47,166 bases of DNA from Bacilli bacterium (GTDB lineage Bacteria; Bacillota_I; Bacilli_A; RF39; UBA660): the NCBI GenBank assembly GCA_017515795.1, contig JAFWEE010000007.1:1-47166 (forward strand), in the 5' to 3' direction. Below are positions 5,883-9,250 of the stretch, piece by piece. Positions within the stretch are counted from its first letter, which is position 1, and the number at the start of each line of letters is the position of its first letter. The notes below the pieces were generated by a model, which ran no database searches, was not told the origin of the DNA, and was given only the letters and a program-made list of their open reading frames with translations. The translations under genes and the position numbers were made by a program.

Positions 5883-6785
5883 ATGATATATGATGCTATT
5901 GTAATAGGGGGTGGACCTGCTGGTCTTACTAGTGCATTATATCTTTTAAGAGATGGAAGAAAAGTTTTAATTATAGAAAAAGAAACTGTAGGAGGAACTG
6001 CTTCTTCTACACCTCTAATAGAAAATTATCCTGGTTTCAAAGCTATATCTGGTTCTGATTTAACAAGCATAATGTTTGATCAAGTAGATGAACTAGGAGT
6101 AGATTTTGAAATAGAAGAAGTAATTGATTTAAAAGTAGATGGAGATATTAAAGAAGTTATTACTGAAGATAATACTTATAAAACTAAAACTATTATTATT
6201 GCTTCTGGATCTTCTTATAGAACTCTAGGATTACCTAATGAAGAAGAGTTAATTGGACATGGTATTCATTTTTGTACAGCATGTGATGGACCATTCTATA
6301 AAGGTAAAGATATTGCTATTGTAGGTGGAGGTAACTCTGCATGTATAAATGCTTATAATATGTCTAATATTGCAAAGCATGTAACTATTCTTCAAAACTT
6401 AGATCATTTAACTTGTGAAAAAGATTTAGTTAATAAACTAGAGAGTTGTAAAAATATAGATATTGTTTATAATTGTACTGTTAAAGAATATTTATCAGAA
6501 GATGATGCATTAACTGGATTAAAAATAGAAACTGATGGTAAAGAAGAAACTCTTAAATTAGATGGAGTATTTCTTAATATTGGATTAGTTCCACAAAGTA
6601 AATTTGTTAATGGTAAATTAGAGTTAGATCCAAGAGGATACATAGTTTCTGAAGATACTACTACTAAAGTACCGGGTGTATTTGTAGCAGGTGATTCTAG
6701 AACTAAGAAATATGCTCAAATAACTATTGCTTGTGCTGATGGAACTATCGCAGCATTAGATGCTATTAATTATTTAAATAAATAA
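5883..6785 (+). CDS. trxB: thioredoxin-reductase-like flavoprotein, atypical nicotinamide site
   Basis: This 300-residue FAD protein resembles thioredoxin reductase and probably reduces the redoxin domain of the NrdD encoded one base upstream. The FAD-binding GGGPAGLTSALY is at the N-terminus, the redox-active pair is CTAC (Cys131, Cys134), and the C-terminal FAD motif is VPGVFVAGDSR. The nucleotide-binding GGGNSAC is kept. However, the NADPH 2'-phosphate motif HRRxxxR of classical TrxB is replaced by QNLDHLT (171-177), so the electron donor may be NADH, ferredoxin or something else. The ATG at 5883 is preferred over an upstream in-frame TTG at 5868, because a GAGG lies just upstream of the ATG. 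Confidence 0.87.
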   Translation: MIYDAIVIGGGPAGLTSALYLLRDGRKVLIIEKETVGGTASSTPLIENYPGFKAISGSDLTSIMFDQVDELGVDFEIEEVIDLKVDGDIKEVITEDNTYKTKTIIIASGSSYRTLGLPNEEELIGHGIHFCTACDGPFYKGKDIAIVGGGNSACINAYNMSNIAKHVTILQNLDHLTCEKDLVNKLESCKNIDIVYNCTVKEYLSEDDALTGLKIETDGKEETLKLDGVFLNIGLVPQSKFVNGKLELDPRGYIVSEDTTTKVPGVFVAGDSRTKKYAQITIACADGTIAALDAINYLNK

Positions 6786-6812: not shown

Positions 6813-6835
6813 TTTTTGTAGAGAATAAAATACAT

Positions 6836-7051
6836 GAAGCGTTTATAAGCTTAAGTGTCTACCTCGTTTTTTTAGGAAAGAAGGTGGTATTGATGAGGAA
6901 ACGTGAGTACGTTTGTAGAGTTTTATTACTCTCATCAATAATTTTATTTCTCCTATTATTAATATTAAAAGAGATAAAAAAATGACACTTAAGATAATAT
7001 TCTAAGTGTCTGTCAACAACAGGTAGACATTTAGTTTATACTAAACGCTTC
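6836..7051 (+). repeat. nested inverted repeats enclosing a short peptide gene
   Basis: Four self-complementary elements lie here. GAAGCGTTTA (6836-6845) pairs with 7042-7051 over 10 bp. Positions 6853-6864 pair with 7021-7032 over 12 bp including one G-U. CTTAAGTGTC (6850-6859) pairs perfectly with 6984-6993. GACACTTA (6984-6991) pairs with 7003-7010. The last three are mutually exclusive, so a transcript could switch between a closed 5'-3' form and local hairpins. No obvious target-site duplication flanks the block. Confidence 0.7.
6893..6985 (+). CDS. 30-residue hydrophobic peptide, candidate type I toxin-like peptide
   Basis: A short ORF with an excellent ribosome-binding site (GAAGGTGG, about 8 bases before the ATG) encodes a 30-residue peptide. 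It has basic ends (MRKRE at the start, LKEIKK at the end) around a single hydrophobic span of about 16 residues rich in Leu and Ile. This is the layout of small membrane toxins of type I toxin-antitoxin loci and of other one-pass peptides, and no homologue is recognised. It stands alone between the trxB terminator and the pcrA promoter. A TGTCAA at 7011-7016 would be a consensus minus-strand -35 box (TTGACA) for an antisense RNA over its 3' end, but the matching -10 (about 6989-6994) is poor. Confidence 0.55.
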   Translation: MRKREYVCRVLLLSSIILFLLLLILKEIKK

Positions 7052-7098
7052 CTTAATTAGATAATAACATATATTCTAATTTAATTCTATATTTTTTA

Positions 7099-7144: not shown

Positions 7145-9250
7145 GTGAGCATTTTAGATAATTTAAACAACAAACAAATAGAAGCTGTTAAAGCATTGGA
7201 TGGACCAATGCTTATTTTAGCTGGAGCAGGATCAGGTAAAACAAAAGTATTAACTACTAAGATAGCATACCTTTTAGATGAAAGAGATATTAGTCCTGTT
7301 AATATACTAGCTATTACTTTTACTAATAAGGCTGCTAAAGAAATGAAAGAAAGAATATATAACTTAATAGGTAGAGAAGCTTTTAGACTTCAAATATCTA
7401 CTTTCCATTCATTTGGATTAAAACTATTAAAAGAAAACTATGATAGATTAGGACTAGATAAAAACTTTAATGTACTTGATGCAGATGATTCATTAACACT
7501 TGTTAAAAAGATAATGAAGAACTTTGATATTGATACTACTAAGTTTAGTCCTAAGGCTGTTAGAAATGTTATTTCAAGTAATAAAAATGAAATGATTAGC
7601 CCTGAAGAATATCATAAATTTGTATATACTGATTTTGATGAAGTTGCAGAAAAGATATACATAGAATATGAAAAGAATCTAAGAAGATCATCAGTAGTAG
7701 ATTTTGATGATTTACTTATATTACCAATTGAATTATTTGATGAAAATAAAGATATATTAGCTAAATACCAAGAACAATATAAATATGTATTTATAGATGA
7801 GTATCAGGATACAAATAGACCACAATATATCTTATCTAAGATGATAAGTGCTAAGTATAAGAATATAACTGTAGTTGGTGATGCGGATCAAGCAATATTT
7901 ACTTGGAGAGGTGCAGACTATAAAAATATACTTAACTTTGAAAAAGATTATCCAAATTCAAAAATGGTAGTTCTAGATGAAAATTATAGATCTACTAAAA
8001 AGATATTAGAGGCTGCTAATAGAGTTATTAAAAATAATAAACTAAGAAAAGAAAAGAACTTATGGACATCTAATGATGAAGGAGAAAAAATAGTCTACTA
8101 TAGAGCTTTTGATGAAATGGATGAATCTAACTATGTTATTAAAGAGATAAAGAAATTATTAGATGAAGGTGTATCTCCAAAAGATATATGTATACTTTAT
8201 AGAGCAAATGCACAAAGTAGAAATGTTGAAGAAGCATTCCTTCGTAACAATATTTCTTATAGAGTAGTTGGTTCATTTGCATTCTATTCAAGAAAAGAAA
8301 TAAAGGATTTAGTAGCGTACTTAAAACTAATAAATAATAATAAAGATGATGTATCTCTTTTAAGAATAATTAATTATCCAAAAAGAGGTATTGGATTAAA
8401 AGCATTAGAGAACTTAGAATTAGAAGCATCTAATTCTAATAAATCATTATTTGAATGCTTATCCAGTGGAAAAGAATTAGAATTTAAAAATATAATTGAA
8501 GACTTATCTAAAGCAAAAGAAACTATGTCTTTAACAGATTTTATAGATTTAGTATTAAATAAATCTGGTATTAAAGAAGATTTAGAAAACGAAAAGACTT
8601 TAGAAGCAGATATTCGTTTAGAAAACTTAGAAGAATTTAAATCTATTACTAAGTCAGTTGAAGAAAATGATGGAATAGTATCTCTATCAGATTTTCTTGA
8701 TGAGTTATCACTAGTTAGTGATGTTAATGATCAAAAGAATGATTCTAATGATGAAAGAGTATCACTTATGACTATTCACTCTGTTAAGGGATTAGAATAT
8801 GATTACGTATTTATAGTAGGTATGGAAGAAGGATTATTCCCACATATAAACTGCTTAGAAAGTAGAGATGAACTAGAGGAAGAAAGAAGACTTGCTTATG
8901 TAGCTATTACTAGAGCTAAGAAAAAACTATTTATTATAAATGCAAGAAGTAGACTTCTTTATGGTAAAGTAGATTCTAATGTACCAAGTAGGTTTATCGC
9001 TGAGATAGGTGATGATTTATTTGACCAAATTAAAAAAGATGGTATAATTAGAGATACACAAGGTACAAAAGAAAATAGAAATGTAGAAAAAGAGAATGAT
9101 TTAAAACCTGGTGATGTTATTACTCATGAAAAATATGGTATGGGTGTAGTAATAAATATCGAAGGACCTATAGCTACTATTTCATTTTCTAAAGACGGTG
9201 TTAAAAAAATACTTAAGAATCATAAGTCTATAAGTAAGATTAATAATTAG
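7145..9250 (+). CDS. pcrA: PcrA/UvrD-type superfamily 1A DNA helicase
   Basis: PcrA is an ATP-driven 3'-5' helicase used in DNA repair and rolling-circle replication and for removing RNA polymerase or RecA from DNA. The 701-residue protein has the Q motif (LNNKQIEAV), Walker A AGAGSGKT with Lys32, Walker B as IDEYQDTN near residue 218, GDADQAIFTWRGA (motif III), the VSLMTIHSVKGLEYDYVF segment and VAITRAKKKL (motif VI). The C-terminal tail (LKPGDVITHEKYGMGVV) is the Tudor-like domain that binds RNA polymerase in Bacillus PcrA. The start is GTG after a GGTGAT. A nucleotidyltransferase gene follows 10 bp later, with ligA beyond, echoing the pcrA-ligA linkage of Bacillus. Confidence 0.95.
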   Translation: MSILDNLNNKQIEAVKALDGPMLILAGAGSGKTKVLTTKIAYLLDERDISPVNILAITFTNKAAKEMKERIYNLIGREAFRLQISTFHSFGLKLLKENYDRLGLDKNFNVLDADDSLTLVKKIMKNFDIDTTKFSPKAVRNVISSNKNEMISPEEYHKFVYTDFDEVAEKIYIEYEKNLRRSSVVDFDDLLILPIELFDENKDILAKYQEQYKYVFIDEYQDTNRPQYILSKMISAKYKNITVVGDADQAIFTWRGADYKNILNFEKDYPNSKMVVLDENYRSTKKILEAANRVIKNNKLRKEKNLWTSNDEGEKIVYYRAFDEMDESNYVIKEIKKLLDEGVSPKDICILYRANAQSRNVEEAFLRNNISYRVVGSFAFYSRKEIKDLVAYLKLINNNKDDVSLLRIINYPKRGIGLKALENLELEASNSNKSLFECLSSGKELEFKNIIEDLSKAKETMSLTDFIDLVLNKSGIKEDLENEKTLEADIRLENLEEFKSITKSVEENDGIVSLSDFLDELSLVSDVNDQKNDSNDERVSLMTIHSVKGLEYDYVFIVGMEEGLFPHINCLESRDELEEERRLAYVAITRAKKKLFIINARSRLLYGKVDSNVPSRFIAEIGDDLFDQIKKDGIIRDTQGTKENRNVEKENDLKPGDVITHEKYGMGVVINIEGPIATISFSKDGVKKILKNHKSISKINN

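Follow-up and report, generated by a model that had tools for sequence, protein, structure and literature searches.

What does a short intergenic block encode when its two ends can pair with each other and a small open reading frame lies between them? Such a block occupies positions 6836-7051 of the window, by which we mean the whole 47,166-nucleotide stretch analyzed here (contig C4, low in G+C, from a 684-kb assembly that is 66% complete). It is flanked by trxB, which ends at 6785 and is followed by its own terminator, and by a pcrA/uvrD-type helicase gene (7145-9250), both genes being named from their predicted proteins. An earlier note on this DNA had read the block as a type I-like locus with 5′-3′ closure of the mRNA and an antisense RNA. 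Upon comparison with ~150 relatives the core of that reading gained strong support, while the start and the end that it had assigned to the antisense RNA proved wrong. On the comparative evidence below, we consider it likely that the locus is a type I toxin-antitoxin system of a new family, with the peptide as putative toxin and the antisense RNA as putative antitoxin.

The proposed peptide gene and its strong ribosome site are both present in the sequence. The gene (6893-6985, plus strand, ATG to TGA, MRKREYVCRVLLLSSIILFLLLLILKEIKK) encodes a 30-residue peptide of basic-hydrophobic-basic layout and is preceded by the Shine-Dalgarno (SD) sequence GAAGGTGG at 6880-6887 on the same strand. When 147 relatives were searched with the DNA and the peptide, homologues turned up within the host's genus and family, and a profile built from 20 peptides matched 189 of the 386 genomes from that family, representing 99 of 150 genera. 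When a class-wide sample was searched with this profile, 28 of 395 genomes matched, and all but two belonged to the host's family; one exception was weak, and the strong one (L174, G559:C32), from another family of the class, is one full element near a contig end that could reflect either transfer or misbinning. We extracted 117 copies and found that the frame is exactly 30 codons long and gapless in nearly all of them (T1 copies). The median pN/pS was 0.46, and mean heterozygosity at the first, second, and third codon positions was 0.245, 0.189, and 0.376, the third position being the most variable. Taken together, these two patterns imply a translated frame under purifying selection, so that a small hydrophobic-peptide frame with a ribosome site, as would be expected of a type I toxin gene, is maintained here. 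The homologue search that the earlier note had proposed thus finds the peptide frame kept in relatives, with the flanking arms and promoters conserved as well. Across 148 elements, the peptides are short (median 30 residues) and very hydrophobic, with a median net charge of +4. A few family members appear to be decaying, having lost the start codon or acquired an internal stop (L040, L024, L146, and G000:C14:4640-4702).

Within its own assembly the block is present in single copy, besides short A+T-rich matches. Four close relatives, the window among them, have it at this place between trxB and pcrA, and this gene order is common only to the four genomes with the element. The TrxB and PcrA proteins are 97-99% identical among the window, G002:C53, and G010:C11, and the window peptide shares only ~70% identity with its G010 counterpart. 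G002 carries two tandem copies at the same trxB-pcrA place, one resembling each type, which makes a tandem duplication followed by different losses likely. Elsewhere in the window, positions 8850-8946 (plus strand) inside the pcrA-type gene matched Rfam n00280, a C. difficile sRNA inside a helicase gene, with an E value of 4e-8 and 57.6 bits against a cut-off of 65.2; this match probably represents just coding conservation. A DNA match to staphylococcal integrases (E 0.5, 42 bits) was rejected as a chance hit in A+T-rich sequence.

The plus strand of the block folds to -67.2 kcal/mol versus -39.2 kcal/mol after shuffling (z -7.05, a fold that none of 200 shuffles equaled), and the minus-strand fold has a z of -6.15. 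Helices were found at 6836-6845/7042-7051 (10 bp), 6844-6859/6984-6999, 6984-6996/6998-7010, 6852-6864/7021-7033, and 6888-6897/6931-6940. All four helices that the earlier note had placed around the gene therefore exist, several being mutually exclusive as it had stated, and the outermost 10 bp do join the 5′ end to the 3′ end. The arm at the 5′ end, GAAGCGTTTA (6836-6845), closes the mRNA end to end through its complement at 7042-7051, and the same arms are found in relatives. Covariation pairs leader segment A, TTAAGTGTCTACCT (6851-6864), with the arm B′, AGGTAGACATTTA (7021-7033), near the 3′ end. The plus strand further contains the 10-bp start-codon helix (6888-6897/6931-6940), recovered by the helix search as well as by folding, and, at 7030-7051, a 3′ end hairpin, TTTAGT-TTAT-ACTAAA, together with the 3′ closing arm TAAACGCTTC; this hairpin serves as the predicted mRNA terminator in relatives and has a weak U-run here. 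Given these alternative helices, it is plausible that the block is switchable, as originally suggested.

How the closure would act on translation may be less simple than hiding of the ribosome site. In partial-transcript folds, the CTACCT of leader segment A has an alternative pairing over the ribosome site. For the window copy, the SD is mostly paired in either state, being 23% unpaired in the absence of the 3′ end, when CTACCT covers it, versus 45% in the full-length RNA, when CTACCT pairs with B′; the start codon lies inside the 10-bp helix in full-length and partial folds alike. Because the leader-free folds hide the ribosome site better than the full-length fold, the role of 5′-3′ closure may differ from SD hiding, and closure may instead shield the RNA ends or set the course of folding. 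From this SD folding pattern, co-transcriptional protection at the window locus, as proposed for aapA3 (PMC6733600), is a fair guess.

For covariation, we aligned 62 diverse copies at the A:B′ helix and at the post-stop hairpin (B:A′, 6984-7010). Here 90% of cells are paired and 12 pairs show double changes, and the score was 0.169 compared with 0.106 for shuffles (0 of 500 as high) and at most 0.091 for slid controls, in data that come from genome assemblies, many of them fragmented, with close copies that are not independent and shuffles that leave kinship in. The covariation analysis proposed in the earlier note thus reveals compensatory changes in both helices. The aligned antisense strand folds into two hairpins, in which single pairs show as many as 19 double changes. 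Wobble counts, which come mostly from few columns, were 85 GU versus 21 AC for A:B′ and 4 GU versus 60 AC for B:A′; as supporting evidence only, these fit a plus-strand RNA in which A:B′ acts and a minus-strand RNA that forms the post-stop hairpin. An energy-based strand test of the terminator hairpin at first appeared significant, but it equaled the composition control and was left out of the argument.

Which promoters would produce the two RNAs? In the aligned flanks of relatives, the left side carries TATAAT or TATACT immediately ahead of a GGGAA 5′ end. At the corresponding place the window has the putative mRNA -10 TAAAAT (6826-6831, plus strand), which scores low and has a weak -35, and the predicted mRNA start is ~6836-6838. 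On the right side, the minus strand of relatives carries TTGaca-17-TGnTATTAT. The earlier note had proposed a minus-strand TTGACA at 7016-7011 as antisense promoter, but this hexamer has no -10 at the proper spacing and is unconserved in relatives. The promoter scan instead placed the antisense promoter to the right of the block (7061-7089, minus strand), with -10 TATTAT at 7066-7061, an extending TG at 7069-7068, -35 TAGAAT at 7089-7084, and a 17-nt spacer, so that transcription is predicted to start at ~7053. Similarly, the antisense RNA had been thought to end at the trxB terminator; instead it appears to have its own terminator, composed of the covarying hairpin at 6984-7010, which begins inside the peptide stop codon, and a U-tract at 6982-6976 encoded by the run of A residues in the final two lysine codons. 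For instance, in L045 the frame ends earlier yet the A-run and hairpin are kept, as expected if both serve the antisense RNA. The resulting putative antitoxin is ~78 nt long in the window (6976-7053, minus strand) and ~75-115 nt across copies, and it is complementary to the whole mRNA 3′ UTR and, through the repeats, to the leader. An antisense RNA gene overlapping the toxin mRNA, the second hallmark of a type I locus, is thus predicted from a conserved convergent promoter and terminator.

These minus-strand signals recur across the family. With the 17-nt spacer, the minus-strand promoter scored 10.3 on average versus 8.3 for resampled sequence. The TG-extended -10 was present in 130 of 148 elements versus 16 in shuffles, and the antisense terminator in 133 of 148 versus 46. 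In most copies this promoter with its TG-extended -10 lies ~35 nt from the element end; in a shorter version found in the window's genus, the distance is 9-12 nt for several copies. Family-type copies also hold, in their right flank (e.g., L047, ~1685-1700), a conserved CAAG-GAAA-CTTG hairpin with a GNRA loop at the predicted antisense 5′ end, with compensatory variants such as GAAG-GAAA-CTTC; it is absent from most copies in the window's genus. Comparison among relatives thus establishes, at the level of sequence, the peptide frame, both promoters, both structures, and their covariation.

Is the RNA arrangement tied to this one peptide? To build a covariance model we used the antisense RNA alone, leaving out the peptide classes that it later uncovered. 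The model found ~150 loci in 32 of 80 relatives, there being at least 148 paired loci in the host's family; it matched nothing in 31 genomes of other families, and its matches in a phylum-wide sample fell only in genomes of the host's family. At many of these loci the original peptide is absent and another short hydrophobic frame with a ribosome site stands at the same place, a frame being called at 89 of 113 model matches. Since the model was untrained on those peptides, the new frames provide an independent check, within the limit that our picker selected hydrophobic frames with a ribosome site. At least six peptide classes were found on one RNA chassis, including MKKKDLLISFLILIIILLIVSVMILCIKK, MSKKDFLIFFLIIIILLLIVLLFVILK, MRKSEKYLCSIIILLIIVILIILIKIVPTV, MTKREFSLFIIILLLFLVVIILLLK, and MKTKSFILKLISKFSVLVLHLAFLGFVILLIIISIKK, where chassis denotes the convergent antisense RNA, the terminator encoded by the toxin's last codons, and the 5′-3′ mRNA closure. 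In the 148 elements, leaders pair with their own 3′ UTR at a mean of -36.5 kcal/mol, compared with -24.4 kcal/mol for the 3′ UTRs of other elements and -22.2 kcal/mol for those of other classes, which indicates from sequence that the pairing arms have co-diversified. Copies often stand in tandem, with as many as 14 per 1-Mb genome, and their neighbor genes differ (143 singletons among 169 neighbor clusters, in either orientation). We think it somewhat probable that a single chassis has been fitted with at least six membrane peptides and multiplied within one family of reduced-genome bacteria, a 1-Mb genome holding up to 14 copies, its arms co-diversifying against cross-silencing between paralogues and a subset of copies coming under SOS control.

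The SOS connection arises from a LexA-like box, AGAACAAATGTTTG, directly ahead of the toxin-promoter -10 in ~38 of 148 elements, spread over several classes. The density of such boxes upstream is ~3.0 sites per kb, some of which are ribosome-site matches, versus 0.29 per kb overall. The same box occurs in the lexA promoter of the window's assembly and of ten relatives, and this sharing makes it very probable that the box serves as LexA operator throughout the host's family. That operator approximates GAACAWWTGTTTG, usually as two boxes ahead of lexA (L162 1487-1545; L290-L299), and it would be usable for predicting the SOS regulon in these uncultured bacteria. In many copies without the box, a second recurrent motif, TGTTCGCTTGTTTT, lies over the toxin-promoter -35 (e.g., L128, L084, and L140). 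The window copy has no LexA box in its toxin promoter, both of its -35 hexamers are weak, and its mRNA terminator has a poor U-run; it may therefore be weakly expressed or decaying.

From these features we infer transcription of the locus, repression, and toxicity as follows. The left promoter would give rise to a ~215-nt mRNA for the 30-residue transmembrane peptide, and this mRNA would be kept inert by pairing of the 5′ leader with the 3′ end and by local helices on the ribosome site and start codon. The convergent right promoter would produce the antisense RNA, ~78 nt long here and as long as ~115 nt in relatives, and this RNA would stop at the terminator embedded in the stop-codon region of the peptide gene. 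During normal growth, the antisense RNA would prevent peptide synthesis, either by forming a duplex that RNase III degrades or by an initiation block. A shortage of antisense RNA or induction of the toxin promoter, the latter probably by the SOS response via the LexA box in about a quarter of relatives, would allow the peptide to be made and to insert into the membrane. If true, an extensive and so far undescribed family of peptide loci under RNA control would exist in ~1-Mb genomes, where such a load is unexpected. Because the same RNA pair occurs in hundreds of natural versions, RNA-RNA specificity, orthogonality of paralogues, and toxin exchange could be read from sequence.

Other explanations were weighed against the same observations. 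It is unlikely, with some chance left to it, that the peptide serves the cell as a small membrane protein, for example by regulating a transporter or envelope stress, under antisense control and without toxin function. The toxin role is itself putative, single-helix peptides can act as regulators, and LexA control with antisense silencing would also suit a stress-response peptide. This reading sits poorly with at least six unrelated-looking peptide classes on one RNA chassis, and with copies that are multiplied, tandem, and patchy among differing neighbors, which is typical of toxin-antitoxin loci and unlike a protein with one partner.

The terminal inverted repeats, the dispersed and tandem copies, and the varied neighbors could also suggest a MITE-like repeat element, in which the repeats are transposition ends and the frame a passenger. 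We judge this very improbable, since the frame is under purifying selection, conservation passes beyond the repeats into -10 and -35 boxes on both sides at fixed spacing, the repeats co-vary by compensatory substitutions, and no transposase was noticed. The earlier note had named in advance the case of a MITE with repeats that travel independently of the peptide frame; what we found instead is a kept frame and promoters conserved past the repeats. The chance is slighter still that the block is a leader peptide or attenuator for a neighbor gene such as pcrA, a role that alternative hairpins, one containing a stop codon, and the trxB-pcrA position retained in four close relatives including the window would fit; in other genomes the neighbors differ in nearly every copy, and each transcript has its own terminator. 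We thus retain a type I toxin-antitoxin locus as the best explanation.

How does this locus compare with known systems? Searches of Pfam, NCBIfam, PADLOC, and PHROGs gave no significant family for the peptides, so standard annotation likely misses them; peptide searches of phage, plasmid, and viral contigs gave no match, and we found no literature on type I toxins together with RF39. In the bsrG/SR4 and yonT/SR6 systems of Bacillus subtilis, an antisense RNA of ~100 nt overlaps the 3′ end of the mRNA for a small hydrophobic peptide (PMC8309996; PMC5848175), as predicted here; the Rfam BsrG model (RF01412), Rfam's only match to the locus, reached 18.1 bits in the window against a cut-off of 55 and did not match seven other loci. 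The LexA-repressed promoter of the small membrane toxin in tisB/IstR-1 of E. coli (PMC8309996) is paralleled by the box in about a quarter of the toxin promoters, the window copy being without it, whereas the antisense arrangement and the peptide are different. The aapA/IsoA systems of Helicobacter and hok/sok use long-distance 5′-3′ mRNA pairing, and AapA1 is a 30-residue toxin with C-terminal basic residues (PMC6733600). The present family shares with them the 5′-3′ pairing of the full-length mRNA, which we looked for and found, as well as multiple copies, a 30-residue peptide, and possibly transient SD-hiding hairpins. In contrast to aapA and hok, the antisense RNA here is predicted to be transcribed convergently, entering from the 3′ side and terminating at the stop codon; no sequence similarity to them was noticed, and in the window fold the closed state hides the SD no better than the open state.

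The locus plan is closest to that of par/Fst (RNA I/RNA II) from the Enterococcus plasmid pAD1, where convergent promoters yield an mRNA of ~230 nt with the SD in an intramolecular stem-loop and a sequestered 5′ end, and direct repeats add another stretch of complementarity close to the 5′ end (PMC7472228). Convergent promoters, similar mRNA size, a ~30-residue peptide, a sequestered SD and 5′ end, and repeats giving a second region of complementarity near the mRNA 5′ end are likewise predicted here. The PxxxG motif of Fst/Ldr toxins occurs in 1 of 148 peptides and is absent from the window peptide. Unlike par, with its one shared bidirectional terminator, this locus has two separate ones, for the antisense RNA at the stop codon and for the mRNA at the right end; its antisense RNA exceeds that of par in length and is complementary to the entire 3′ UTR, and a large part of the leader is paired to the 3′ end. 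In its overall plan, then, the family most closely resembles par/Fst with an aapA/hok-like 5′-3′ closure added.
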